64,000 nt of DNA from Stygiobacter sp. RIFOXYC2_FULL_38_25. GTDB taxonomy: Bacteria > Bacteroidota > Ignavibacteria > Ignavibacteriales > Melioribacteraceae. Numbering within the stretch: the stretch's first letter is position 1; the number at the start of each line of letters is the position of its first letter. The stretch spans positions 1 to 64,000 of the forward strand of contig MHAZ01000004.1 of the NCBI GenBank assembly GCA_001803165.1, written 5' to 3'. Below the pieces are notes generated by a model. The model was not told the origin of the DNA, searched no databases, and saw only the letters and a program-made list of their open reading frames with translations. Made by a program: the position numbers and the translations under genes. Shown piece by piece: positions 10,088 to 25,900 of the stretch.

Positions 10088-12343
10088 CTATTTGATCAGC
10101 ATAAGTTTTTTTGTAATCGAGTTATGTTCCGTAGTCATTTTATAATAATAAATTCCACTAGGGAGATTTTGCGCGTTAAATTGTAGCTCGTATCTGCCAA
10201 TGTTTTGTTCCTTATCAACAAGTGTTTTAATTTCATTACCTAGAACATCATACACCTTGATATTTACATATGATTTGTACGGAAGTTCATACCGGATTGT
10301 TGTGCTTGGGTTAAATGGATTTGGATAGTTTTGATGTAACTTGAAATCTACCGGAATCTTTGTATTCACTTCCTCAATTTCCGTTATTAGGTTAAACCAT
10401 TGCAAAATTTTTACTTGGGGTGCCTGGATGCTGGTTCCGAAACGGAAATATTTTGCATTTGTTTTGGGCGATTTAGTGTTCACCGCAATTGGATCAAAAC
10501 TAAAGAATGTTATTTTATTTCCGTTACTTAAAGTACGGTGCGTTAAACAAGCAAGATTTGTTTTTTGAGTTGTTCCATTTACTACTCTTGTTTCAACTTG
10601 TATATCTACTTGTTGATCACTAACAACATCAAATCCATCTATCCAGTTTTCTGTTTTGTTCAATTCATAATAAGGATCATACTGGAGAGAATCGCTTCCC
10701 CACAGCAAGAATTTCCTATACAATTCATCGCCCAAGAGACTGTTTTGCACGGCAAACATTCTTGAAGGCTTTATTGATGCATTTAAATCAGTTACATCAT
10801 TATAGGAGTGATTAATACCGAGTATATCATACTCAAACGACCCGGCAGAATAGTCTTTATCTATAAATCCGTCTTTAGCGCCCAGCCATTCCTGACCGGA
10901 TAGAGCGTAATTGTGGTTTCCGTTTTGTGCAAGCCAAGTACGTATTACACCTTGGTTATATTTTATGTTTTCACCTGAATTATCCGAACTGCATATTTCG
11001 AATATATTGGTATAATGATTCACCAACTCTGAAGTTAACGCGCCATAAGACCAAACATCATGCGTCCAGTTATTTACTTTAGCAGATTCATCCAACACGA
11101 AATATGAATTCATCGGGAACTGATTTATTTCTTCAGGCTCCATTCCATTAAATACCAAAAGAGATTTGACTCCTGGAGTTGGTCCGAAGACATAATATGA
11201 ATATGACTCGCCTGAGATGGATATATTTCCGTTAGTATCATCTGCCTTAATACGGTAGGTTACTTTAGTACCCGCATGCTGTCCGGGAATATTACCGGTG
11301 AAAATATCCCCGCTGGATTTTGTCATAGAGATGTCTTTCCATGTGGTATCTTTGTTTAAGAAGTACTGCAAATAAGCATTGCCTACTCCGGCAGTTCCTC
11401 CGCTCGGATTTTGATCAACAATCTTTGCTGTTACGGATCGTGCTTCTTTAGATAGAGTTGTTTCAAGAATATCAATATCGCTAATCATCGGCGAAGCGTC
11501 TCCGGTTATCTCAACTACAACGACTACATTTACCAAGAAATCTCTTTTCCACCAGCCGGCTGTCGTAAGATCGCCCGGTGTTCTTCCGTTTGCGTAAAAC
11601 TTAAAAACACCATAACCGGTTTCACTTGTAGCCATTATTCCAAACGTATTGTTTGATTCCCTCAATTCGGAATTCTTGATACAAACTGCAAAAACATCTC
11701 CTTTCTTTAATTCAGGTTCATTATTAAGAATATTCATTTCAATCCATTGATACGATTTAGAATTTTTATCATCAACAGGAAATAGTGACGCTCCAATTCC
11801 GTTATCGCTCCATAAATCGCTACCAAACGGATTATTACTTTCCGCTGAATTATTTATCCATGTTTTTGAAGTTGTGACATCACCTGAGAAAGGAAATATC
11901 TTATTTGTGTTGCCGTTAGAAATCCAATAGCCCAAATTTTCCGAACCGGCATTATTAAGTTTCTTTTCAGTCCATTCTTTATTGATCATTACAATTTTTA
12001 ATTCTGCTCTGACACTTAGTGCGTTATCACCGGCATCAATGCCGCAAGCTTTAATTTTGAGATCTTGCGGACAAACAAACCATGCAGCTATTATGTCTTC
12101 TCCGGCTGCGCTGAAAATAGTGTTGTAGCCTCTCACAACCTTATCATTGTTCAAAGTATCTGCCGCACCCTTAGCTCTAATTAATGCTTCATCGGAAATA
12201 GATAATGATTTTAAGTTGATGGTTTTTCCACCGTGATTCTGTACAATCTTTGTTTGTGCTACTGATGGACTGACTAGCGATAGTTTAATTAATAATCCAG
12301 CAAAAACTATAAATGATACAATAGAATATTTTCCCTTTTTCAT
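10088..12343 (-). CDS. T9SS-exported protein of unknown function
   Basis: 751 residues. A long signal peptide (1-~30, ending SPSVAQT) and a C-terminal T9SS type A sorting module (NYPNPFNPSTTIRYELP, closing KKLMLIK) mark a secreted or surface protein. The middle contains a strand-rich segment (~30-265) rich in W, N and G, and an immunoglobulin-like segment (~280-380, VTYRIKADDTNGNISISGESYSYYV). The region ~390-640 (LLVFNGMEPEEINQFPMNSYFVLDE onward) resembles no enzyme family that I recognise. It is monocistronic by appearance: a terminator follows it and ~60 bp separates it from the giant gene upstream. Function unknown. Confidence 0.75.
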   Translation of the reverse strand: MKKGKYSIVSFIVFAGLLIKLSLVSPSVAQTKIVQNHGGKTINLKSLSISDEALIRAKGAADTLNNDKVVRGYNTIFSAAGEDIIAAWFVCPQDLKIKACGIDAGDNALSVRAELKIVMINKEWTEKKLNNAGSENLGYWISNGNTNKIFPFSGDVTTSKTWINNSAESNNPFGSDLWSDNGIGASLFPVDDKNSKSYQWIEMNILNNEPELKKGDVFAVCIKNSELRESNNTFGIMATSETGYGVFKFYANGRTPGDLTTAGWWKRDFLVNVVVVVEITGDASPMISDIDILETTLSKEARSVTAKIVDQNPSGGTAGVGNAYLQYFLNKDTTWKDISMTKSSGDIFTGNIPGQHAGTKVTYRIKADDTNGNISISGESYSYYVFGPTPGVKSLLVFNGMEPEEINQFPMNSYFVLDESAKVNNWTHDVWSYGALTSELVNHYTNIFEICSSDNSGENIKYNQGVIRTWLAQNGNHNYALSGQEWLGAKDGFIDKDYSAGSFEYDILGINHSYNDVTDLNASIKPSRMFAVQNSLLGDELYRKFLLWGSDSLQYDPYYELNKTENWIDGFDVVSDQQVDIQVETRVVNGTTQKTNLACLTHRTLSNGNKITFFSFDPIAVNTKSPKTNAKYFRFGTSIQAPQVKILQWFNLITEIEEVNTKIPVDFKLHQNYPNPFNPSTTIRYELPYKSYVNIKVYDVLGNEIKTLVDKEQNIGRYELQFNAQNLPSGIYYYKMTTEHNSITKKLMLIK

Positions 12344-12405: not shown

Positions 12406-15400
12406 TCATTTTATCATTAATAGTTTCATTGTTTTAACAAACCGTTCTCTATTTTCCACCGATTCAGCCTCAATTCTTAATAAATAAACACCGGATGCTA
12501 GCCCTTTACCATTCCAAACTTTACTGTAATGACCAGCGTACTGTACTTCATCTACAAATTGCTCAACTTCTTCTCCAAGTATGTTATAGATATTTATCTT
12601 TACCTTGCTATCCGTTGGCAATTCATACTTAATTGTAGTTGTTGGATTAAATGGATTCGGGTAATTCTGGAATAATTCAAACTTAGCAGGCATTTCGGGG
12701 TTTTCTTCTGCTATCTTTCTAACACCATTAAATTCTCCTCCGTTAGTGCTATAAGCGAATATATCATCACCGTACAGATATACCAAGCTTTCAGAAAAAC
12801 ATCTCACCTTCATACCTGAACTTTTTATATTAGTTAATTTTAATGACCAAGTTTGACCACCATCCGCCGATTTGTAAAGAGAATATGAACCATTAATTCG
12901 CACAGAGATGTAACCAACGTTATTAATAAAATGAATTGATTCAACCTCGCCAGGTATTTCAGTTTGTACCTGTTGCCATCTCCCCCCACCGTTTGTGGTG
13001 CTGATGATTAATAATTCTTTTCTACTCGATTCACTGTTATAAAATGAACCAACTACCCAACCCGTGTTTACATTTGCGAAAAAAATATCTTTGAAATTAA
13101 TTCCGCTCAGACTAAAACCTAAATCTGTCCAATCCACACCTCCATTAGTTGTTCTATAAACTGCACTGTTGTTATAATTAAAACCAGTCTGGGTGTTGAT
13201 AAAGACAAATTTATCGGGAAAAATATTCGAATTTTGCCATGTTGCGCCACCATCTCGAGTTGACAGCAAGGTTGTCGAATATTCCGCATTCATACGCAAC
13301 CAACCTATTTGTTCATTTAAAAAGTAGATAGAGCTATTCACCGGATTTATTAATGTATTTACTTCATTTCTATAACTATAGAGGGTGCTGAGAATTTGAC
13401 CTTGATTTCCATACCTATATAGAAATCTATTTTCAAAGAACCCAGGTTCATAAAATGGATTAGGCGGGATATACTCTCTATATGCATCTAAAATAAAAAA
13501 GGTATGCTTGTTCAAAAAAAAGTGTCCAACAATATTTCTGTTGTTAGAGGCCGGTGACCAATTTGCACCCGAATTATTTGTTATATAAACACCATTTTTA
13601 TTTCTCATATAAGCAGTGCTTTGATCGAACGTCGCTAAATCAATTATGCCGGAAGAGTCAATTTCAACCCACGATAAATTTGGATCAAATCGTTGAACTG
13701 TAACAAGAGCCGAATCACATGTTAAAGGATCAGCCACATCCAAGATTTTCATTTCTAATTGCTTCCCAATTTGATTGGGAATGTAGTCAAATGATTTTTG
13801 ACTACTGTTTATTTCACCGGACTCATAGACTAAACCGTTATTATTAGTGAGTTGAATTTTTACTTTACCAGTTAACGAGCCGCAATCCCATTTGATACTT
13901 CGTGAAATTCCTTGTTGAATTTGATCATTGTCTTTAGGATCAACAAGTTTGAGGAAATTATCTCCATATCTGTATAAATAAACCTTATCCTCTGCCCCTA
14001 CCCGAGCAGCACCTAAAATATATAACGCTCCAGAGCCTGCATTAGTTAAATTGTAAAAATTCCCTTCATAAGGTATCTGTATGTTGGTCCAGTTTGATCC
14101 TCCGTCGGTAGATTGCCATGAACTGTTATTGCCAAATGCCCAAACATCTAAAGAAGAGATTAGCTGAAGATCGCTGAGATTAACAGTTATGCCAGAACTG
14201 AGTTGCGTCCAAGTATTACCGGAATCAATAGTTTTATATCTGGTTCCATTGCTGCCAACAATTAGACCAAGGGAACCATTAAATGCAATTGAGGATAAAT
14301 TGGAATTTGTTGATAAATTTATTCTCACCCAGTTTATACCTCCATTTTGTGTCTTGTAAATAAGTCCACTTTTTCCAACTATCCATCCAACGCTTGAAGA
14401 AAGAAATTTAATATCATTTATATCTGCACTTGCAATATCAATGTTAGCCGAAATTTGTGTCCAGTGTTTTCCCGAATCCGTGCTTTTATAAAGTGAAACC
14501 AATCCGTTTTTTTCCGCAAAAATCCAACCATCTTGCGTTCCATTAAATACTATTTTTTTAATATCTGCATCTATTGGTAATGGATAAGCTTGCCAGCTAT
14601 CACCCTCATTATTTGTCGCATAAATAGTTTTAGTGCTATCCTTCTTGGCGATTACAATCGCAGAGTTATCATCTATCTTTGTTAATAGAGAAAATCTCGT
14701 AAAATCTTGAAATGATAATACCGGCTGCCATGAAAAACCACCATCCCTTGTTTGAAGGATTTGGGCTTCACTTGTTCCTGAATATGTGTATGAGGGGACA
14801 CGCCCAATATTGGGAACGTCTGTGTAAGTAATTGAAACCGTAACATGAGAAAAGTATTTATTAACTAGACCGGTTGAATTATTCAAAAAGGTAAGATTTC
14901 CAACGGTAGTTTCTGAATTCGGTCTCAAATTATTAGAAACTTTTTTCCATCTATACGCACTACTCTGCCATATAGTAAAAGTTGTATCGCTAACATCAAG
15001 AACATTCGAGTTATCGTATGAAGAAATTTTAAATAGACATCTCGATGAACTTAATTGAGGTAACCATACAACAGCTTTATTTTTTCTACCATCTACTCGG
15101 TTAGCAACCAGACTCCATGTTTCCCCATTATCTTGAGATATATAGATTTTGATCAATCCGGCATTTGTATTTATCCACGAAACTTCTATTCTTGAATTAG
15201 CCTGATAACTTTCAAAGCCATTTGGAGAAACAATCCTGAGAGGTCTCTTGACAATTTTAATATTTTGTATTGAATGGTTTATATAACTAAAATCTAATGA
15301 GGTTAATTTAACTTCAAGGCTATCTGTAGCCAAATCAGGAGGAGTCCAATAACAATAACCTGAGTCCGCAGCGCGGAATGAATGATTAATCATTTCCCAG

Positions 15401-18400
15401 GGTAGGCTGGGCTTCAGCCTGTATTCTAATTTAAGTGTTGTTAAATTTTTACTGACCCATGTTATTTTATGTTCTTGCTTTGCAAATAAATATATTTTAT
15501 CACTCAGATTAGTTAGCCGGAGAATCGGACCTGAGATAATTGAAAATGATTTGCTTTCGAATTTATTATTTGATCCGGTATCAACAATTCTCAGCTTTGC
15601 TTCATTTGTTGGCATGTTGGCAATTTGCCAAGAAATGCTGTCATTTGTAGATGCTACGTTCGGTAAGAGCAAACTCCAGCTATTACCACTATCATTACTT
15701 TGTTCAATATTGAATGTATCAATAGATGAAGTCTTCCATTTTAATGAATAGATTTTGTTTTGCTCAAGTCTTACACCGACTCTGTCAATAGGTTTTTCAA
15801 ATCGAGCAAAAGGAGCATTCACAATTGCGAAAGGAGTTCTACACAAGCTGTAAATTTCACTATCACTTTTATCTATAATTCTAATTAAGCAATCTTGTGA
15901 AAAAATATTTGGGACAGTCCAATCATACTTGAGAAGATTTGACTGGATACTATCAGCAAAAGTTGTCCAATCACTTCCTCCATTGGTTGAATATTCTAAT
16001 TTCACTTTGTCAATATTTTGGCTTGCCCAGTTGATGCGGAAGGTTGAATTACTTTTCAGAATTTGTCCGGAAAGATTTGGATCTAAATCTAATTTTATAA
16101 TACTTATGGTCGCAGTTGCTTGATCACAGAATAAACAATTTTTCTTAACATTAATAGAAAATGAAGGCACAGTTGTATTTGTTGGGATATAGAAGGAATA
16201 ACTATAAGGAGCAACTCTTGCTGTATAATTTCTTTCTAATGCAGTAGTAGGCGAACTGGAATTAAAGAGACCAACTGATTCTATCTTTAATGGAACATCC
16301 TCGTAACAATACCATTGAATCACTATCTCACTGCCTGGGCGCACCCGAGTTCGTGAAGGGAATACAACTTCATAGTTTTTATTGTAAATAGTAAATTTTT
16401 TACTGATCACTGTATCAGTCGAATCTGAAATTCGTACTAAACAATTTCTCGACTGGATATTCTGGAAATAAAATGAATATGTATTTCTAGATAAAGTATA
16501 ATTTGATACAATATTTATCCAACTGATTCCTGAATCAGTTGAATAATCAATTTTAACTTTTCCAATCGAGTTGTCCCAGGTTATGTTTAAATTAGTGCCA
16601 CTCTTGCAAATTTGATTTTCAATAGGCGCCAAAATTCTTATCCTTGATAGACTAAAAGAAGAATCGCTTTCATCATAATGATTGGGATTAGCGGCATCTT
16701 CAATCTTTATTTTTACATTACCTTGGATTGTGTTGGGAATCAGCCAGTTGAATTCCTTCAATCCGGCTTCAACAAGATTGGCTATAGATGTCCATCTGTA
16801 ATTGCCGTTCTCAAAAAAACCTATTAAAATATTAATCCTATCTACCAAGACAGAATTCCATTCAATTTTTACCGTTGATCCAGTCTTAAGATAATCTCCT
16901 CCGTTAGGATTTTTAAGCTGTAAGCTGCCCCTAATACTATTTATAGTTCCGTTGCTAATGTAACTTGCACTGCTATTAATATCTGATACTCTAATCCGAA
17001 AAGATGCAACCGTATCCGGGAAATGCCAATTATATTCACCTAAGTCTGCATCTACTGAATCATCTATTATTTTCCAATTCCATGAATTATTAAATAGGTA
17101 TTCCAACCTAACAAATTGAACGTCTGTTGAACGCCACTTTATTAGAGCGGCACTTCCTATAGTATAAAATGTATCAGCCTGTGGATTAATAATTGTTATC
17201 TCAGGACGTATAATCGAGAAAGTTGAATCGCTAATTGCACTAACATTTTGATTAAGATTATCACTAATGCGAATCAAACATTTATTACTAAACCGATTAG
17301 GGACTGTCCAGCTATAAGATTTTTCCGATGAACGAATCAAATATGAAATCGTATTCCAATTATTACCATTATCAGTACTAAAATCTAGTTTTAGATGGTC
17401 TATATTTGTATCGCTAACCCAATTTACGTTTACTATATCTCCTTCTCTAAATTTCTCGCCACCCTGTGGACTAACGAGTTTTAATAGGTAAGCCGTAAAA
17501 TTTGCAGCTGATTGAGCTTTAACATCTGTAGATAACATGCTGGATATTCTTACTTTGTTGTTAAATCCAGGCTGAATATTCATATTCCACAGATATGAAG
17601 AATCTGCAACATTTATATTGTTCGCAATTGTATACCAGTTGTTGGCATCATCGGGAGAATATTCTAATTTCACCGGACCGGATAAGTATGCAGATTCCCA
17701 TTTTATTTTGTGATTTGTGTTGAGCGGCCATGACTCTCCTCCGCTAGGAGACAATAGATTAAGATGACAGATTGAAAATACAGAATCTGATTCAGCAGAG
17801 ATTAATTCATCGGCAGCATCTTCGATTTTTATTTTAGCTAACCTAGTAAGAACCATTGGGACATTCCAAACTAAAGAACCGGAAGCATTGTCTATTAACT
17901 GCCAGTTACCACCATTGTCAATCGAATAGAAAACTTTAACAAGAGAAACATTTATACCTGTCCAACTAATAGAATAATTATTCCCAGCAAGTAAATATTC
18001 TCCTCCTTTGGGGCTGATTAAAGTCACTATTCCCTTTTGAATTGAAAATGGACTCTCACTTTTATCAGTAATAAGTGGTTGGTTCTGATCTGTTAATCTT
18101 ATCAAACAGTTGTTCGAAATTCTGTCGGGTACAACCCAATCATATTTTCCTAGACTTGCGTTTAAGTTTTCACCAATTCTAATCCATCGTAGTCCACCAT
18201 CAATCGTATAATCTATGGATAATAATGTTGAGTAGTTAGAGATCCATTTGATGGTTGTCCTAGTATTCTTCGCTATCTTTTCACCACCATTCGGACTTGT
18301 CAAAGTCACTGCTGGTAGATATATCGTAAACACATTGTCACTAACGTCATTGATAGTTGGGTCTTCAACATCACTTATTCTCACTTTACAATTTGTTGAA

Positions 18401-21400
18401 AGTGAATTAGGTACTGTCCATGAAAATCTTTGTGAAGATGAAGTGATGTTACTAGCAAGCGGAGTCCAGATATTTCCACCATCTGTTGATAATTCAATAT
18501 TAATGTTCGTTACATTATCTGTACTCCATCTGATATCAACTACGGAGTTGGGAAGCAATTTCTCCCCTCCATTTGGATAAGCTACATAAACGAGTGCCCG
18601 AACAATTGAAAAGAATAAATCGCTTTCATCTTTTACATTCGAATCGCTAACATCACTGATTCTAACTTTGCAGTTATTAATAATAAAGTTGGGAACTGTC
18701 CAACTGTAACTCCCGGAATTAGCCGGTGTGTTTTCAATAATTTGTGTCCAACTTGTCCCATTATTCTGAGTGTATTCAATCTTAACATTTGTAACACTTG
18801 TACTCGTCCAAGTTATATTTTGAACCTTTCCCAAGCGCCAGTTTTCTCCACCATTTGGTGAAGTAAGCGTGATTGTAGGTGTGTAAATTGTAAAGACCGC
18901 GTTACTCTGGTCTGTTAATGTGTTATCGGAAGTATCCGAGATGCGAACTAATGCTTGTGATGTATTCGAATTTGCGACCACCCAGCTATAACTACCCGTA
19001 CTTGCAGCCGTGCTTGCATTTATTTGTATCCAGCTGCTGCCATTATTTGTGGAGTATTCAAGTTTTACATTTGTGACATTACTGCTAGTCCATGTTATGC
19101 TTTGTGTAGTTTCACCTTTCCAATTCTCTCCTCCATTTGGTGATGTTAAAGTTATAGTTGGAATATAAATAGAGAATACCGCATTGCTTTGATCAACAAT
19201 TGTATTATCTGTTATATCCGAAATTCTAACCAATGCTTGTGTTGTGTTTACACTTGGTACAGTCCATAAATAATAGTTTGGCAAGCCAGCAATATTAGAA
19301 GTAACACTGGCAGCAATTTGAATCCAGCTGGAACCGTTATTTATTGAATATTCAATTTTAACGTTCGGAACGTTTGTTGCGATCCATGTAATTGTTTGTG
19401 AAGAACCCGCTTTCCAGTTTTCTCCACCGTTGGGAAATAGAACACTTATAGTTTGATTATAAATTCTAAAAACAGAATTGCTCTGATCCTTAACCGTATT
19501 ATCTGTTGTATCGGTTACTCTTACCAAAGCAGTCGAAGTTGTTGAGTTAGTAATCGTCCAGCTATAACTTCCGGTATTTGCAGCAGTACTTGCAATAATT
19601 GTAGCCCAGCTCGAACCACTATCAACTGAGTACTCAAGCTTTACATTGGAAACGTTATTGCTTGTCCATGTAATATTTTGCGAAGTACCTACTTTCCATT
19701 CTTCTCCGCCGTTGGGCGATGTTAGACCTAATGTTGGAATGTATGTTGTGAACACCGCATTACTTTGATCTGCTAGAGTATTATCCAAAGTATCGGAGAT
19801 TCTAACCAATGCTTGAGTTGAATTTACATTAGGGACAGTCCACGAATAATAATTTGGAGAGCCGGAAATATTTGTTGGTACACTTGCAGCAATTTGAATC
19901 CAGTTAGTGCCGTTATCTATTGAGTATTCCAATTTAACATTAGGAACATTTGGTCCAATCCAAGATATAGTTTGAGACGAACCCGCTTTCCAGTTTTCTC
20001 CACCGTTGGGAAATAGTACACTTACAGTTTGGTTATAAATTCTAAAAACAGAATTGCTCTGATCCATAACCGTATTATCTGATGTATCGGTTACTCTTAC
20101 CAAGGCAGTCGAAGTTGTTGAGTTTGGAATAGTCCAAATATAACTCCCCGTATTTGCAGCAGTACTTGCAATAATTGTAGCCCAACTCGAACCACTATCG
20201 ACTGAGTACTCAAGCTTTACATTGGAAACGTTATTGCTCGTCCATGTTATATTTCTATTTGTTCCAACTTTCCACTCTTCTCCACCGTTGGGGGAAGTAA
20301 CTATAATAGTTGGTGTATAAATTGTGAAGACAGCGTTGCTCTGATCTTTTATCGTATTATCCGCAGCATCCGAAACCTTTACCAATGCTTGTGTTGTGTT
20401 TGAATTCGGAACTGTCCACGCATATGCACCGGCAGCGGCTGGTGTACTTGCAATTATTTGCGTCCAGCTTGTTCCATTATTCACAGAGTATTCAATTTTA
20501 ACATTCGTAACGCTGCTGCTCGTCCACGTTATATTTTGGGAAGAGCCAACCTTCCAACTTTCCCCGCCGTTTGGAGAGGTCACGGTAATTGTTCCGCTTG
20601 GTACTGGAGTGTATTTTAAAACTTTGCCCGCATCACCAACTGCCCATCCGGTGGTTGCATTAACAAAACTAAATGATCTAAGCGCGTCTGTAATTCCACT
20701 TGTTTGTGCTGACCAATTTGTTCCTCCATTTGTAGTTGCTTTAATTAGTCCGCCGGAACCGCCAACCCAAATGTTGCTTCCGCTTGCAGCACCGCAGCCA
20801 TAAAACCATTCGTTAATTTCTCCGCTTGGCTGCAACCCCCAATTTGTACCTCCGTTAGTTGTAGCTATGATTGTTCCATTTGGACCAACAGCCCAGCCAT
20901 TCTGGTTATCGGAAAAGCTAACAGAGTAAAGCCAGAGAGTTGTAGGACTCGTCTGAGCTGTCCAACTTTCTCCGCCATTTATTGTTTTTAATATTGTTGA
21001 TCTTCCAAAAGCATAATTACCTCCTACAGCCCAGCCGGTATTTGCATCTGTAAAGAAAACGCTCCATAAAACATCTGTTGTTCCGCTTACCTTGCTAGTC
21101 CATGTAAATCCGCCATCTATTGTTTTGATAATCTTTCCGTTATCTCCAACAGCAATAGCAGTGGTCGCGCTTACACTATACACTCCAAATAAATCAACCG
21201 TTGTTCCGCTGTTCATAGTTTGCCATATTAAACCGCCGTCGCTAGTCATCAAAATTTTGCCGCCGCTGCCAGCTATCAGTCCATTTAGCGAACCGGAAAA
21301 AGAAACTGAGTTAAGTTGATTCGTAACACCGCTTGTTTGAGTTCCCCAATTCGCGCCGCCGTTTGCTGTGTAAATTATTTTGCCTGTAGCGCCTACTGCC

Positions 21401-21534
21401 CAGCCTGAATTAGCATTTATGAAATTTACCGAAGTCAGATTATTTGTAGTGCCGCTATTTTGAGCCGACCACTGAGCTAACACTGATTGGCTAAATAACA
21501 CGGCTGCTGCTATTGTTAAGATGATGTTTTTCAT
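12406..21534 (-). CDS. Giant T9SS-exported repeat protein (3042 aa)
   Basis: Signal peptide (1-20), then YCF48-like units (~21-310, each GWAVG...ILKTTNGG). These are followed by about 20 tandem modules of 90-97 residues, opening with SPNGGE-x-W, then ITWTS, LEYS-x-NNG-x-SW and SWTVPN, and closing with VRISD...DQSNAVFTIY. They resemble the Ser-Thr-rich/Kre9-KNH Ig-like family. A second YCF48-type propeller block follows (~2190-2480), then one more degenerate Ig-like module, further propeller units, and a T9SS sorting module (NYPNPFNPTTTIKYELP, final KLLMIK). Modules 1-7 are nearly identical and later ones diverge steadily. The protein is probably a surface-displayed stalk or adhesin-like structure; no enzyme domain is visible. 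Ligand unknown. Confidence 0.88.
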   Translation of the reverse strand: MKNIILTIAAAVLFSQSVLAQWSAQNSGTTNNLTSVNFINANSGWAVGATGKIIYTANGGANWGTQTSGVTNQLNSVSFSGSLNGLIAGSGGKILMTSDGGLIWQTMNSGTTVDLFGVYSVSATTAIAVGDNGKIIKTIDGGFTWTSKVSGTTDVLWSVFFTDANTGWAVGGNYAFGRSTILKTINGGESWTAQTSPTTLWLYSVSFSDNQNGWAVGPNGTIIATTNGGTNWGLQPSGEINEWFYGCGAASGSNIWVGGSGGLIKATTNGGTNWSAQTSGITDALRSFSFVNATTGWAVGDAGKVLKYTPVPSGTITVTSPNGGESWKVGSSQNITWTSSSVTNVKIEYSVNNGTSWTQIIASTPAAAGAYAWTVPNSNTTQALVKVSDAADNTIKDQSNAVFTIYTPTIIVTSPNGGEEWKVGTNRNITWTSNNVSNVKLEYSVDSGSSWATIIASTAANTGSYIWTIPNSTTSTALVRVTDTSDNTVMDQSNSVFRIYNQTVSVLFPNGGENWKAGSSQTISWIGPNVPNVKLEYSIDNGTNWIQIAASVPTNISGSPNYYSWTVPNVNSTQALVRISDTLDNTLADQSNAVFTTYIPTLGLTSPNGGEEWKVGTSQNITWTSNNVSNVKLEYSVDSGSSWATIIASTAANTGSYSWTITNSTTSTALVRVTDTTDNTVKDQSNSVFRIYNQTISVLFPNGGENWKAGSSQTITWIATNVPNVKIEYSINNGSSWIQIAASVTSNIAGLPNYYLWTVPSVNTTQALVRISDITDNTIVDQSNAVFSIYIPTITLTSPNGGENWKGETTQSITWTSSNVTNVKLEYSTNNGSSWIQINASTAASTGSYSWVVANSNTSQALVRISDTSDNTLTDQSNAVFTIYTPTITLTSPNGGENWRLGKVQNITWTSTSVTNVKIEYTQNNGTSWTQIIENTPANSGSYSWTVPNFIINNCKVRISDVSDSNVKDESDLFFSIVRALVYVAYPNGGEKLLPNSVVDIRWSTDNVTNINIELSTDGGNIWTPLASNITSSSQRFSWTVPNSLSTNCKVRISDVEDPTINDVSDNVFTIYLPAVTLTSPNGGEKIAKNTRTTIKWISNYSTLLSIDYTIDGGLRWIRIGENLNASLGKYDWVVPDRISNNCLIRLTDQNQPLITDKSESPFSIQKGIVTLISPKGGEYLLAGNNYSISWTGINVSLVKVFYSIDNGGNWQLIDNASGSLVWNVPMVLTRLAKIKIEDAADELISAESDSVFSICHLNLLSPSGGESWPLNTNHKIKWESAYLSGPVKLEYSPDDANNWYTIANNINVADSSYLWNMNIQPGFNNKVRISSMLSTDVKAQSAANFTAYLLKLVSPQGGEKFREGDIVNVNWVSDTNIDHLKLDFSTDNGNNWNTISYLIRSSEKSYSWTVPNRFSNKCLIRISDNLNQNVSAISDSTFSIIRPEITIINPQADTFYTIGSAALIKWRSTDVQFVRLEYLFNNSWNWKIIDDSVDADLGEYNWHFPDTVASFRIRVSDINSSASYISNGTINSIRGSLQLKNPNGGDYLKTGSTVKIEWNSVLVDRINILIGFFENGNYRWTSIANLVEAGLKEFNWLIPNTIQGNVKIKIEDAANPNHYDESDSSFSLSRIRILAPIENQICKSGTNLNITWDNSIGKVKIDYSTDSGISWINIVSNYTLSRNTYSFYFQNIQSRNCLVRISDSTDTVISKKFTIYNKNYEVVFPSRTRVRPGSEIVIQWYCYEDVPLKIESVGLFNSSSPTTALERNYTARVAPYSYSFYIPTNTTVPSFSINVKKNCLFCDQATATISIIKLDLDPNLSGQILKSNSTFRINWASQNIDKVKLEYSTNGGSDWTTFADSIQSNLLKYDWTVPNIFSQDCLIRIIDKSDSEIYSLCRTPFAIVNAPFARFEKPIDRVGVRLEQNKIYSLKWKTSSIDTFNIEQSNDSGNSWSLLLPNVASTNDSISWQIANMPTNEAKLRIVDTGSNNKFESKSFSIISGPILRLTNLSDKIYLFAKQEHKITWVSKNLTTLKLEYRLKPSLPWEMINHSFRAADSGYCYWTPPDLATDSLEVKLTSLDFSYINHSIQNIKIVKRPLRIVSPNGFESYQANSRIEVSWINTNAGLIKIYISQDNGETWSLVANRVDGRKNKAVVWLPQLSSSRCLFKISSYDNSNVLDVSDTTFTIWQSSAYRWKKVSNNLRPNSETTVGNLTFLNNSTGLVNKYFSHVTVSITYTDVPNIGRVPSYTYSGTSEAQILQTRDGGFSWQPVLSFQDFTRFSLLTKIDDNSAIVIAKKDSTKTIYATNNEGDSWQAYPLPIDADIKKIVFNGTQDGWIFAEKNGLVSLYKSTDSGKHWTQISANIDIASADINDIKFLSSSVGWIVGKSGLIYKTQNGGINWVRINLSTNSNLSSIAFNGSLGLIVGSNGTRYKTIDSGNTWTQLSSGITVNLSDLQLISSLDVWAFGNNSSWQSTDGGSNWTNIQIPYEGNFYNLTNAGSGALYILGAARVGAEDKVYLYRYGDNFLKLVDPKDNDQIQQGISRSIKWDCGSLTGKVKIQLTNNNGLVYESGEINSSQKSFDYIPNQIGKQLEMKILDVADPLTCDSALVTVQRFDPNLSWVEIDSSGIIDLATFDQSTAYMRNKNGVYITNNSGANWSPASNNRNIVGHFFLNKHTFFILDAYREYIPPNPFYEPGFFENRFLYRYGNQGQILSTLYSYRNEVNTLINPVNSSIYFLNEQIGWLRMNAEYSTTLLSTRDGGATWQNSNIFPDKFVFINTQTGFNYNNSAVYRTTNGGVDWTDLGFSLSGINFKDIFFANVNTGWVVGSFYNSESSRKELLIISTTNGGGRWQQVQTEIPGEVESIHFINNVGYISVRINGSYSLYKSADGGQTWSLKLTNIKSSGMKVRCFSESLVYLYGDDIFAYSTNGGEFNGVRKIAEENPEMPAKFELFQNYPNPFNPTTTIKYELPTDSKVKINIYNILGEEVEQFVDEVQYAGHYSKVWNGKGLASGVYLLRIEAESVENRERFVKTMKLLMIK
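19411..20016 (-). repeat. Tandem two-module duplication, period 576 bp
   Basis: Within the giant gene, the same 30-bp stretch occurs at 19411-19440 and 19987-20016, an offset of 576 bp (192 codons, two Ig-like modules). The surrounding DNA is near-identical, with substitutions scattered, so a pair of modules has duplicated as a unit in frame rather than one at a time. At the protein level this shows as alternation of SPNGGEEWKVGT and FPNGGENWKAGSS units. Confidence 0.85.
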
Positions 21535-21548
21535 CTTACCCTCTTAAG

Positions 21549-21902
21549 TTAATTTTTGCTTATTACTTTTATGTATTCAGGAAGTTTATGGATATCCTCT
21601 TTCTTGAAGTATTGTATTGCACCTATTCTTTTTGTTTCAGTACGCATAAAATCATCATCATAGTTAGAGACAATTATTACTTTTGCTTTCGCGTCAATCC
21701 GCATAATCCTTTCTGTGGCTAACAATCCATTTAGTTTTTTCATTTTAATATCCATAAGCACCACATCCGGCTGATACTTTTGGTAAAACTCAACAGCCGA
21801 TAAACCATCGCTGCACTCATAAATTTCGTTTACAAAATCGGCAAGCATTTCTTTTATCATGTGCCGGACATTTACATTGTCATCAACAATTAGAATATTC
21901 AT
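21549..21902 (-). CDS. Single-domain response regulator receiver
   Basis: 117 residues, a bare CheY-like receiver. Acidic pair D7/D8, phosphoacceptor D51 in VVLMDIKMKKLNG, S79 (IIVSN) and lysine K100 near YFKK are all in place, so it should accept phosphate. No output domain. It lies just upstream of the giant T9SS gene (14-bp gap) and downstream of the kinase/NarL regulator pair, from which it is separated by ~120 bp. It may relay phosphate from the propeller kinase or another kinase; the partner is inferred from position only. Confidence 0.88.
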   Translation of the reverse strand: MNILIVDDNVNVRHMIKEMLADFVNEIYECSDGLSAVEFYQKYQPDVVLMDIKMKKLNGLLATERIMRIDAKAKVIIVSNYDDDFMRTETKRIGAIQYFKKEDIHKLPEYIKVISKN

Positions 21903-22023: not shown

Positions 22024-22674
22024 CTAGAGATTTGCTTTGTTTTGAATGGCGTACTTCATTAAAACATTAACACCGTGTAGATCGAGTTTAGCACAGATAT
22101 TAACCCGGTGGTTATCAATTGTTTTTCTGCTGACAAATAATTGATCTGCTATTTCCTGGCTGGTTTTACCATTGGCGATTAGCCTGAGTATAGTCTTCTC
22201 TGTAGAAGTAAGTTTTTCGATGCCGGTATTTTCAAGCGTTCCAAAGATGCCTCTCTGATTGGTAACAAAGTAATTAGAGAGTGCCGGACTAAAATAGAAA
22301 TCCTCTTTAGCTACTGCATGAATACAATCAATAATATCTTCTGCAGCGCTATCCTTCAACAAATAACCGGAGACATTTAACTCCATTGCACGCTTAAAGA
22401 TCTCGTGCTCATTATGCATAGTTAGAAAAATAACTTTCACTAGAGAATTACTTTTTCTTAACTCTCTTACAGTATCAAAGCCTGTTGTAATCGGCATGTT
22501 TATATCAAGAACAGCTATATCCGGAGAAACTCTTTTTATTAGATTAACTGCTTCCTCTCCATTGGCAGCTTGACCAAAAATTTCGATATCCTTTTCCAAT
22601 TCAATAATATCTACAAGCCCTTTCCGGAAAATCGGGTGGTCATCTGCAATAATCACTTTTATTTTTGATTTCAT
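22024..22674 (-). CDS. NarL/FixJ-family response regulator
   Basis: 216 residues. N-terminal receiver with acidic pocket D11/D12 and phosphoacceptor D57 (IAVLDINMP), and a C-terminal LuxR-type helix-turn-helix (~150-210, LTSTEKTILRLIANGKTSQEIADQL then VSRKTIDNHR). The ATG overlaps the stop of the sensor kinase gene by 4 bp (ATGA type), which indicates co-translation with its cognate kinase. DNA target not visible; local T9SS genes are plausible but unproven. Confidence 0.93.
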   Translation of the reverse strand: MKSKIKVIIADDHPIFRKGLVDIIELEKDIEIFGQAANGEEAVNLIKRVSPDIAVLDINMPITTGFDTVRELRKSNSLVKVIFLTMHNEHEIFKRAMELNVSGYLLKDSAAEDIIDCIHAVAKEDFYFSPALSNYFVTNQRGIFGTLENTGIEKLTSTEKTILRLIANGKTSQEIADQLFVSRKTIDNHRVNICAKLDLHGVNVLMKYAIQNKANL

Positions 22675-25600
22675 TTGGGGATTAACACTTTAATTGTAGT
22701 TCCGGTTTTATTGTTACTCTCTATTTCAAAGTTACCATTTAATGCTATTGACCGCTCTTGCATAGTACGCAAACCGAGTCCCACATGTTCACTCGATTTT
22801 TCCATACCGCTGATACCAATTCCATCATCACTTATTACAAGTTGAATTTTATTCCCGACATAGCTGAGTGAAATAACTACATTTTTTGCTTGTGAGTGTT
22901 TAATAGTATTAGTTATAGCCTCTTGCACTATTCTAAAGAGATTAATGCTTTCATCAAGATTCAGATACCGGTCAATGTTTTCAATAAAATCGTGAAAAAC
23001 AATTTCACCGGATTCTTTTATTCTGCTAACCAAACTTTGAATAGCAATTGTTACACCTAATTCTTCAATCTGATAAGGGTGTAAATCTCTGGAAATTTGC
23101 CTTATATCTTTGATAGACTCCTTAATAGTTTCGGAAATATTATTCAAATGTCTTTGAGCATCGGCGGGTTTCTTTAACCCCATCTGTGTCAAGTTACTCA
23201 CTATTAAAAGATTTTGCCCAACTCCGTCATGTAATTCAGCAGCAAGACGTTTTCTTTCACCTTCTTGTGCGGCAATTAATTTTCTAGAAAACAAAATCTG
23301 CCTCTCGGTTTCCTTTTTAAATCGTTTCACTCTTCGGGAATAAATCCATAAAATTATCCCGGTAAAAGAAGAAATAAATATTAAACGAAACCATGTTGTT
23401 GCCCAGAATGGAGGAAGAATTGTAATGGCAATAATAATTCCCTTTTCACTCCAAACTCCATCACCATTTGTAGTCTTTACTTTTAATAAGTACTCACCGG
23501 GGTCAACATTAGTATATGCCGCATATCTTCGTTTACCGGAATGAATCCATTCTTTATCGTAGCCATCCAGCATATAAGCATATTCATTAGCCGAGTTTGA
23601 TAAATCCAAAACAGAAAATTCAAAAGAGAAATAATTATCGTGATATTTCAGAATTATCTCCTCTCCATCATAATGTACCTTGTTAGGATACTTTACTTCA
23701 TCGTACACTTTGAAATTTGTTACAGCTAATTTCGGGGTATTAGTATTGCTGTAAATACTGTCGGGATTGAAAAACAATAAGCCCTCTATGCCTCCAAAAT
23801 ATAAATTTCCATGTTTGTCCGAGGTAAAGGCTCCGGTATTAAATTCGTACGTTGGAATACCATCGTTTAACTCATAGTTCTTAATATTCTTACTCTTAGT
23901 ATTAAAGCGTGCAATTCCGTAATTAGTTGAGAGCCATAGATTATTTTTACGGTCTCTTAATATTCCATAGATGACATTATTCGGCAGCCCATCGTTCTGG
24001 GTGAAGGAGGCAAATCGTTTTTTCATAGGATTAAATTTTATCAATCCGTCTCCTAACGTGCCTAGCCAAAAGGTTGAATCATTTTCTATATTAAACGAAT
24101 ACAAAACACTTTGAGTTGAGAAGTTGTCTTTAGTATCAGAAAAGAAACGTTGATAATCTCCGGTAATTTTATCGTATACAACCAAACCTGAAGCTGCTGC
24201 CATCCACAATTTTCCATGTCGTTCTTCTTCAATTTGAAAAATGACAACATCCTTTTTTGCATCCGGATTTTTATTCGTAAAAGTGTGGTTGTGAAAATTG
24301 CCGTTCTTAATATCAAAACTAAATAATCCAAGTCCGTAAGTGCCAAACCAGAGCGTGTCGCTGTTGCCCGGATAAATACATCTTATAGAGAAAACCGGTA
24401 GAGTTTCTTTTGTTCCTAATTTATTAATAAATCTCTCGAATGAATCCTTTTCTTTATTATACTTAGCTAAACCCCTTTGGGTGCCAAACCAGATATTCCC
24501 TTTTTTGTCTTCTGTGATAGTCCAAACTTTATTATCGTTAATAGAAGTTTCATCGCCGGGACGATTAAAATATTTAGTAACAACTTTGGATTTGGCAGAA
24601 ATTCTATTCAAGCCGTTATCAGTCCCTATCCATAAGTTGTTTTCTCTATCTTTATAAATAGATCGTATGGAATAATCGCTTAGGTACTGACGATTTTCTC
24701 TTTTTGTATAGCTGTTGAAGTTAGGTCTGTTTTTAATCCACTTAATTACGCCGCTTGTTGAAGTACCAAACCAATAATTACCATTAACATCTTCATAAAC
24801 ACACATGATGTTTTTCTCTTCAGCCACCGGATTTGATTTGGAAGCAATAAAAATTTTCGAGAAGGACTTTTGGGAAGCATTAAAAACATTTACTCCATTC
24901 CCTTCAGTGACAATCCAGATTCTGCTATCTCTATCACGGTAAAGTGATAAAATATTATTTCCACTTATTGAATTAATATGCGACGAATTGTTTTTATAAA
25001 TAGAAATCTCGTTAGTAGATGTGTTGAGAACATTGAGTCCATTTGTAGTGCCGATGATTATATTCCCGTTGTTATCTGAGCACAAAGCTGAGATGTAATT
25101 TGAGCTAAGTCCGCCTCTATTCACTTGCTTTTTTGATATGTATTCAAATTTCCCCGTCGCGATGTTGTACTTGTTAATTCCCGAACTAAAGGTGCCTATC
25201 CAAATATTACCAGATTCATCTTCACATAACGAAGTAATATAATTATCGTTGATTGAATTATGTGCTTGGGAATTTTTCATATATCTGACAGACTTGCCTC
25301 TACTTATTTTTAGTAAACCGGAATAGTAATCACCAATCCAAAGAGTACCATCCATGGCAATTAGAATAGATGATACCGAACCAACAGTATTTACATTATT
25401 GATTGTGTCTTTAATGGTTAGCTTACTAAAGTGATTTAACCTTGGGTCATAAATAGACACACCGTTAATTGTACCAATAAATATTTTACCATCCTTATCT
25501 TCTGTAATACATGAAATGTAGTTACCGGCTACAGAATTGTTATTCTTTGGTTCTCTTCTAAATTTAGCGAATTGATATCCATCGAACCGGTTCAATCCGT

Positions 25601-25763
25601 CTTGCGTTCCCATCCACATAAAACCATTTCTCTCTTGTAGTAAGCATCTCACATTAGCTTGGGATAAACCTTCGCCAAGAGAATAATATTCAAACTGTGC
25701 TTGTGTTTTTGCGCTGATAATTAATAGAAGTGTTATAATTAATATTTTGAGAGGGTTCTTCAT
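22671..25763 (-). CDS. Two-component propeller sensor histidine kinase
   Basis: About 1030 residues; the ATG at 25763 is preferred because it starts the signal peptide MKNPLKILIITLLLIISA, while 25790 would add nine residues in front of it. Periplasmic part: roughly a dozen two-component-regulator propeller repeats (IWIGT...GLNRF) forming two propellers (~25-680), then a Y_Y_Y domain (~690-775, YAYMLDGYDKEWI...YTNVDPGEYLL). One membrane helix follows (~790-810), then HisKA_3 with the phosphoacceptor histidine in AAELHDGVGQN and a HATPase_c domain (EAITNTIKHS, DDGIGI, HVGLGLRTM). The overall order matches the hybrid-propeller sensors of Bacteroidota, except that the regulator is a separate protein encoded immediately downstream. 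Confidence 0.93.
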   Translation of the reverse strand: MKNPLKILIITLLLIISAKTQAQFEYYSLGEGLSQANVRCLLQERNGFMWMGTQDGLNRFDGYQFAKFRREPKNNNSVAGNYISCITEDKDGKIFIGTINGVSIYDPRLNHFSKLTIKDTINNVNTVGSVSSILIAMDGTLWIGDYYSGLLKISRGKSVRYMKNSQAHNSINDNYITSLCEDESGNIWIGTFSSGINKYNIATGKFEYISKKQVNRGGLSSNYISALCSDNNGNIIIGTTNGLNVLNTSTNEISIYKNNSSHINSISGNNILSLYRDRDSRIWIVTEGNGVNVFNASQKSFSKIFIASKSNPVAEEKNIMCVYEDVNGNYWFGTSTSGVIKWIKNRPNFNSYTKRENRQYLSDYSIRSIYKDRENNLWIGTDNGLNRISAKSKVVTKYFNRPGDETSINDNKVWTITEDKKGNIWFGTQRGLAKYNKEKDSFERFINKLGTKETLPVFSIRCIYPGNSDTLWFGTYGLGLFSFDIKNGNFHNHTFTNKNPDAKKDVVIFQIEEERHGKLWMAAASGLVVYDKITGDYQRFFSDTKDNFSTQSVLYSFNIENDSTFWLGTLGDGLIKFNPMKKRFASFTQNDGLPNNVIYGILRDRKNNLWLSTNYGIARFNTKSKNIKNYELNDGIPTYEFNTGAFTSDKHGNLYFGGIEGLLFFNPDSIYSNTNTPKLAVTNFKVYDEVKYPNKVHYDGEEIILKYHDNYFSFEFSVLDLSNSANEYAYMLDGYDKEWIHSGKRRYAAYTNVDPGEYLLKVKTTNGDGVWSEKGIIIAITILPPFWATTWFRLIFISSFTGIILWIYSRRVKRFKKETERQILFSRKLIAAQEGERKRLAAELHDGVGQNLLIVSNLTQMGLKKPADAQRHLNNISETIKESIKDIRQISRDLHPYQIEELGVTIAIQSLVSRIKESGEIVFHDFIENIDRYLNLDESINLFRIVQEAITNTIKHSQAKNVVISLSYVGNKIQLVISDDGIGISGMEKSSEHVGLGLRTMQERSIALNGNFEIESNNKTGTTIKVLIPK

Positions 25764-25900
25764 TTTTGAAGTTATTCTCGACTCATACATTTTTCATATT
25801 TATAGTAATAAAATTTTATGCAAAGCGAAACTTCTCGAATCTGATGCAATATATTTTAATTCACGAATTCTAGGTTAGTAACTGAAACTGGCAATAAAAA

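Follow-up and report, generated by a model that had tools for sequence, protein, structure and literature searches.

The window analysed here, a stretch of 64,000 nucleotides from Stygiobacter sp. RIFOXYC2_FULL_38_25 (Ignavibacteriales, Melioribacteraceae; contig MHAZ01000004.1), carries on its minus strand a giant gene for a type IX cargo protein built of two YCF48-type regions and a long array of Ig-like modules (M1–M20). The parts of this gene and its downstream neighbour are the following.

12406–21534, minus strand: giant type IX cargo gene, 3042 aa (open reading frame and Pfam)
21475–21534, minus strand: likely signal peptide, residues 1–20 (judged by eye from the sequence)
20595–21474, minus strand: N-terminal YCF48-type beta-propeller, residues about 21–313 (PF14870 and solved YCF48 chains)
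14968–20592, minus strand: 20 contiguous Ig-like (Kre9_KNH) modules M1–M20 (PF10342, module boundaries, M2M3 model)
18877–20592, minus strand: M1–M6, an exclusive clade and putatively a block expanded in place (module tree, support 0.965)
14968–18594, minus strand: M8–M20, divergent modules with a best identity within the protein of at most 47%
12664–14967, minus strand: YCF48/BNR-type repeats of the C-terminal part, including a weak Ig module at about residue 2530 (Pfam, profile)
12451–12663, minus strand: type IX secretion sorting tail (PF18962)
10088–12343, minus strand: downstream protein of 751 aa with a type IX tail (open reading frame and Pfam)

Architecture and secretion context of the giant protein

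Three Pfam families exceed their cut-offs in the giant protein: PF14870 (YCF48-type repeats; 147.5 bits for the whole protein), PF10342 (Kre9_KNH; 86.3 bits against a cut-off of 24.6, with seven stretches passing individually) and PF18962, the sorting tail (34.4 bits against 27). The reading frame and the tail confirm the initial annotation, which had described a 3042-residue protein of the type IX system. The N-terminal propeller stretch matched the solved YCF48 chains 2xbg and 5ojr at E about 1e-16. The modules, delimited by eye and by a motif, lie contiguously between residues 315 and 2189 and measure about 94 residues each. A profile built from the 20 modules recovered the same 20, in agreement with the number of about 20 proposed earlier, along with weaker matches at residues 2339 (10 bits) and 2530 (32 bits). 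The structure predicted for M2M3 consists of two beta sandwiches (pLDDT 96, pTM 0.76), and its best matches among solved structures are FnIII- and Ig-type tandems, the first being the FnIII-like modules of CbhA (E 4e-7). The whole-pair TM to this first match was just 0.32, probably because the angle between the domains differs. In the model, the Kre9_KNH module is thus predicted to be an Ig-type beta sandwich. An Asp-box, suggested by a match to a Reelin subrepeat, was considered and dropped, since its pattern also fits the SPNGGE start of the module.

With its likely signal peptide, a tail over the family cut-off, and SprA and a PorX-type gene in the same genome, the giant protein resembles other type IX cargo with a PF18962 tail; it differs from them in its giant propeller/Ig/propeller build, and its secretion, predicted from sequence, is putative. 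In the genome of the window (4.4 Mb, 22 contigs), the type IX tail was matched 146 times at E 0.001 or better, in some cases below the family cut-off (150 of 163 candidates were scored). The search for the machinery covered SprA, PorX-type proteins and GldL. SprA was found over its cut-off (1030.9 bits, with neighbours in frame) and is adjoined by a 563-residue PglZ protein of the PorX type, while the GldL model gave no match in the genome but was silent in all control genomes too. The window also carries, about 10 kb from the giant gene, a 739-residue YCF48-repeat protein with a type IX tail (84–2303). A prophage occupies 34185–59943, with matches to a transposase (phrog_310), portal, terminase, major head protein, endolysin and tape measure; its ends were not found, and the transposase might hint at a Mu-like lifestyle.

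Divergence of the modules along the array

According to the initial annotation, the modules diverge progressively from near-identical N-terminal units towards the C-terminus. The falling trend is real, as the identity between each module and its most similar counterpart decreases from N to C (Spearman rho -0.92), but it is not an even one. Mean identity per module is flat at 41–42% for M1–M7, drops to 33% at M8 and slopes gently afterwards. A step after M7 fits these values better than a straight line (SS 1052 vs 1775), and a residual slope persists inside M8–M20 (rho -0.78), so that a step followed by a shallow slope is the better description. Near-identical units do not occur at the N-terminal end: the best DNA identities are 88% (M2/M4, 90% at the amino-acid level) and 80% (M3/M5, 79%), and outside these two no pair exceeds 71% amino-acid or 70% DNA identity.

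The relationships among modules were further examined in a tree (FastTree, midpoint rooting) of 905 modules from 56 arrays. M1–M6 form an exclusive clade (support 0.965), within which M2/M4 and M3/M5 are sisters (support 0.998 and 1.0, respectively), and M7 falls outside it. M7 shares 69% identity with modules from a different protein (L064), more than the 63% that it reaches within its own protein, which means that not all similar modules need have arisen in place. L064, a 2424-residue frame whose 17 Ig modules are uniformly similar to one another (mean identity 64%), belongs to a genome of another family and has a different N-terminal part, which we take to resemble an M6-type metallopeptidase. 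Acquisition of M7, and perhaps of its neighbours, by recombination with another array gene would explain the closer foreign match; M1 reaches 66%. Such an origin is nevertheless doubtful: the comparison involved 885 foreign but only 19 own modules, which should in itself raise the highest foreign identity, and the best array paralogue in the genome of the window is just 42% identical.

Synonymous and non-synonymous divergence was estimated by the Nei–Gojobori count for 40 module pairs (all pairs of M1–M8 and all neighbours). Apart from M2/M4 and M3/M5, the other 38 computed pairs have a dS of at least 1.17 or infinite, near or at saturation. The synonymous sites are thus exhausted, and age and constraint are inseparable beyond M1–M6. 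It is conceivable that the gradient reflects constraint and not age, a functional requirement, such as ligand binding or packing close to the propeller, having kept M1–M7 alike. The saturation of the 38 pairs is consistent with this, as beyond M2/M4 and M3/M5 the gradient is one of amino-acid identity alone, and so is the slope within M8–M20, where no duplication is visible. Yet constraint alone would not readily make M1–M6 an exclusive group among 905 modules, and for this reason we regard it as rather unlikely, though worth serious weight, as the general cause of the pattern. In-place expansion of M1–M6 is therefore preferred. For M7–M20, however, the age reading is not secured, because faster change under weaker constraint would give the same pattern.

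A single pair duplication with a conversion-like tract

The closest modules of the array form two adjacent pairs, with the following coordinates.

19735–20310, minus strand: M2M3, left copy of the 576-bp pair
19159–19734, minus strand: M4M5, right copy of the 576-bp pair
19981–20238, minus strand: conversion-like tract, left copy (permutation of codon differences)
19405–19662, minus strand: conversion-like tract, right copy (permutation of codon differences)

M2M3 aligns onto M4M5 at one ungapped offset of exactly 576 bp, which bears out the earlier proposal that paired modules were duplicated together. The gene contains 17 exact matches of at least 14 bp, and 11 of them, including the longest four, lie at this offset; ten are inside the M2M3/M4M5 pair and one links M5 to M7. 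The exact 576-bp period is consequently correct as an offset and not as a running period, since it stems from a single event. For the whole pair, dS is 0.68 and dN 0.086, with 0.475 and 0.059 for M2/M4 and 0.944 and 0.113 for M3/M5. With a dS of 0.68 for the closest pair and the remaining 38 close to saturation or saturated, a single pair duplication can be recognised. It is not recent, which speaks against the active repeat expansion suggested before. For the duplicated modules, dN/dS amounts to some 0.12 (0.059/0.475 and 0.113/0.944). Selection on them is therefore purifying and not diversifying, amino-acid change is slow, and the suggestion of antigenic selection is not upheld. Stygiobacter is not known to be host-associated.

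The two halves of the pair have diverged unequally (35 of 282 against 60 of 294 bases, p 0.01). Differences along the pair are also uneven, being sparse in a tract covering codons 25–110 of the 192-codon unit, where 13 of 86 codons differ as opposed to 58 of 106 elsewhere; at third positions the corresponding values are 10/86 and 51/106. None of 300 permutations reached either value, in a test that assumes exchangeable codons. Gene conversion after the duplication, by which about 260 bp were made alike again, is the simplest account of the tract; uneven constraint is a less likely explanation for the third positions. Of the repeat homogenisation assumed by the initial annotation, this tract is what was found, and nothing beyond it.

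The low level of exact repetition also bears on two other explanations of the array. One regards the giant protein as a periscope-type protein, that is, an actively recombining surface stalk of variable length under length or antigenic selection. Like periscope proteins (PMC8201768), the giant protein is probably exported and is made of folded domains in tandem, with a different domain on the N-terminal side, and the pair duplication would also fit. However, known periscope proteins need long, highly similar DNA repeats, according to the available part of that source, and these are missing from the giant gene, where no two modules share more than 88% DNA identity and exact repeats do not extend beyond 38 bp. 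Together with the dS of the duplicated pair and its purifying selection, this makes the periscope-type explanation very improbable. The other explanation, an assembly artefact at the repeats, draws on the contigs of relatives, which sometimes end inside such genes (the frames L035 and L068 are open at the contig end). It deserves hardly any credence here, as the gene sits well within a contig of 205 kb and contains no exact repeat longer than the 38 bp given above, and a collapse or expansion of the repeats during assembly is accordingly unlikely. A single old duplication followed by local conversion is retained as the probable history of M2–M5.

Block duplication of this kind has been described before: several domains may duplicate at once, and the two-domain unit appeared to be the commonest overall (PMC1553488, in the part available). 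The M2M3 unit agrees with this description in its size. It differs in being bacterial and in lying near the N-terminal end of its array, whereas many of the duplications reported in that part of the paper took place in the middle.

A homologue and related arrays in other genomes

The first 792 residues of the array were matched in 69 of 77 genomes, including that of the window; one of the eight genomes devoid of a match belongs to the same genus and has a completeness of 77%. A whole-protein scan of named genomes confirmed none of 57 candidate stretches as an orthologue. For the C-terminal 852 residues, no match in five same-genus genomes was better than E 1e-26, the listed matches spanning about 100–160 residues, and elsewhere the matches were only partial, the best listed one (44% over 154 residues) being in genome G045. 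This genome, from another family of the order, encodes L054, the only protein with the whole architecture among the matches examined. L054 consists of a propeller, 17 modules with a cohesin-like insert, YCF48 repeats and a tail, and shows a similar gradient (rho -0.83). Its own pair duplication is shifted by one module towards the C-terminus (M3M4 to M5M6) and has a dS of 0.31 in each half; it is independent of, and younger than, that of the giant gene. Moreover, the same three genes precede L054 in the same order as in the window, with a gap of 26 bp before the L054 gene.

A wider sample was assembled from 64 loci taken from high-ranking matches, of which, with the window, 56 arrays of at least six modules were kept. 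Removal of redundancy left 36 arrays, and 14 of these have a pair of at least 70% identity. The most similar pair lies at lag 2 in eight of the 14, at lag 1 in three and at lags 4, 7 and 18 in one each, so two-module duplication is the commonest unit in this sample. A general youth of N-terminal modules was considered and rejected: rho is negative in 23 of 33 non-redundant arrays, but seven are significantly negative and four significantly positive (p < 0.01). Among the 25 arrays whose frame does not begin at the start of the retrieved stretch, a filter that tests the frame start only and may retain frames cut at the far end, 15 are negative and four are significant in each direction.

Neighbours among M2 to M5 are just 52–54% alike although M2/M4 reaches 90%, which recalls the Ig tandem repeats with divergent neighbours described in the accessible portion of PMC4660218. 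Selection for unlike neighbours is only weakly supported in the arrays studied here, unlike in those repeats, and was not adopted. Before the removal of relatives, modules at lag 1 were less alike than those at lag 2 in 37 of 51 arrays (p 0.0015). In the non-redundant set this holds for 23 of 33 (p 0.03), or 22 of 32 when the window is left out (p 0.05), and in arrays lacking a pair of at least 70% for 14 of 19 (p 0.04); a coarser removal, which merged 45 of the 56 arrays and gave 3/6, was discarded. Lag 2 also exceeds lag 3 in 27 of 33 arrays, which indicates two-module units as much as selection.

Several individual arrays of the sample showed features of their own. In L066, M25 and M27 are identical in amino-acid sequence and their neighbours M26 and M28 just 48% alike, owing to either conversion or an assembly fault. 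L061 contains, in a frame of 4687 residues, a long block (M11–M38) with a six-module super-repeat and one module pair identical in amino acids, and it is a better candidate for recent expansion than the giant gene. A related array protein of 12–14 modules (L055, L057–L059, L037, L040), with no pair above 66%, is conserved across several genomes from the same genus and family, and its frame start in the genome of the window is lipoprotein-like.

The upstream kinase, regulator and receiver genes

Three genes on the same strand lie directly upstream of the giant gene.

21549–21902, minus strand: stand-alone CheY-like receiver of 117 aa, separated from the giant gene by 14 bp
22024–22674, minus strand: LuxR-type response regulator, overlapping the kinase gene by 4 bp
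22671–25790, minus strand: sensor histidine kinase (Reg_prop, Y_Y_Y, HisKA_3, HATPase_c)

The recurrence of this set was followed through 64 CheY-like matches selected from a list over 146 genomes; they are high-ranking short frames among the matches listed, some others having been passed over, and the sample is biased because the query came from such a set. Eight loci were left unresolved by the script, including L218, which shows the full set. In five of the 56 resolved loci there is no complete next gene and in two the next gene is on the other strand. The remaining 49 comprise 25 in which the CheY-like gene stands directly before a gene with a type IX tail and 24 in which it does not, and such a gene occurs among the next four in 32 of the 49. 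The exact order of kinase, LuxR-type regulator and CheY-like receiver was found in 31 of the 56 loci, 18 of them with cargo directly behind (16 outside the genome of the window); G045 is outside these counts although it has the same order. By thirds of the list, the link with cargo fades with distance from the query (10/17, 11/14 and 4/18). The profile used to call tails was itself derived from the tails of these loci, and a Pfam search of eight genes from these sets placed seven over the PF18962 cut-off, the eighth being apolipoprotein acyltransferase-like. Other domains of these cargo genes vary (fn3, laminin-G-like, FG-GAP, BNR), and the cargo is thus not one family.

As a control within the genome of the window, 19 of 67 LuxR-type regulator matches were examined, all nearly full length, a few weaker or partial ones of similar frame length being omitted. 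Cargo lies behind eight of the 19, either directly or after one CheY-like gene, against a background of about 4% of genes (146 tails in 4.4 Mb, assuming one gene per 1.15 kb). In one further case (contig C6) the cargo comes one gene later, and behind the other ten none was seen directly. The CheY-like gene was considered as the sole link to the cargo and rejected in this role: it is present in four of the eight sets (the window, C16, C9 and C12) and absent from the other four (C17, C12 twice and C19). It is therefore primarily the kinase and LuxR-type regulator that are associated with cargo, the receiver being an additional member of some sets. Kinase and LuxR-type sets before type IX-tail genes, some with one or two CheY-like receivers, recur in the same genome (L218–L220, L284, L286, L289, L292, L294). 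In L233 (1428–9887), a protein of 2819 residues with no Pfam match at E 0.001 lies behind a second CheY-like gene. Promoter and terminator scans performed no better than shuffles (69 against a mean of 63.9, and 8 against 9.4, respectively).

The CheY-like frames of the loci retain key receiver residues, namely the phospho-acceptor Asp in 62 of 63, and the switch Thr/Ser and the Lys in all 63, and they separate from the LuxR-type receivers in a tree. The receiver before the giant gene consists of the 117-residue receiver domain only, with no fused PglZ. In Flavobacterium johnsoniae, the receiver domain of PorX binds GldL in a two-hybrid assay, and a change preventing phosphorylation of the receiver abolishes this binding (PMC10951265, available part). 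Like PorX, the receiver described here is of the CheY type and linked to type IX secretion, but it is a stand-alone protein beside a cargo gene, and the genome has a separate PorX-type gene. In the literature covered by gene order and by domains (titles and the beginnings of abstracts, open-licence papers), no description of the kinase-regulator-receiver-cargo order was found. The paper on the Melioribacter roseus genome notes enzymes with the Por tail, and the term 'response regulator' is absent from its main text in the part available.

Discussion

Taken together, the results make it fairly probable that the giant gene encodes a type IX cargo with an old Ig array, in which M1–M6 expanded in place and M2M3 was duplicated and partly converted, and whose expression is controlled by the kinase and LuxR-type regulator encoded upstream. 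The product would be a long exported protein that crosses the inner membrane by means of its signal peptide and the outer membrane through the type IX system. Between the N-terminal YCF48-type propeller and the YCF48-type repeats near the tail lies the string of Ig-like sandwiches, which may be extended and may keep the propellers, which are possibly binding domains, apart from each other or away from the cell. The array itself appears to be old. Its six N-terminal modules would have arisen in place, the last visible step being a single tandem event that copied the two modules of M2M3 to give M4M5, after which about 260 bp of the pair were re-homogenised, most simply by gene conversion. The C-terminal modules may be older or may change faster. 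Production of the giant protein is probably controlled by the kinase and the LuxR-type regulator located just upstream, which would switch on the gene.

The role of the CheY-like receiver is harder to assign. Since the PorX receiver binds GldL, in the part of the source cited above, the receiver of the cargo-linked sets might also act on the secretion motor. It would then be phosphorylated by the kinase and control secretion while the LuxR-type regulator switches on the cargo gene, with many such circuits working in parallel in each Ignavibacteriales genome. This is the boldest reading and not the likeliest one, an analogy with PorX that we consider a long shot; the receiver might instead serve as a phosphate sink or as a second output of the kinase.

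The giant protein belongs to known kinds, being a type IX cargo with an Ig array shaped by block duplication. The repeat aspect is ordinary, as block duplication has already been described and the two-domain unit is the commonest, and what is added is a clear bacterial case together with a homologue in which a pair was duplicated independently. The least expected finding is the set of kinase, LuxR-type and CheY-like genes directly before the giant gene, which recurs before type IX cargo in this genome and in relatives, and this upstream gene set matters more than the repeats. If the order of sensor, regulator, receiver and cargo is a functional unit, it would provide a testable link between the receiver and type IX secretion, and, if the receiver indeed acts on the motor, one sensor would set both the production and the export of a surface protein. 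Such a unit would also offer a way of finding out which signals these poorly studied bacteria perceive before they display large proteins on their surface.
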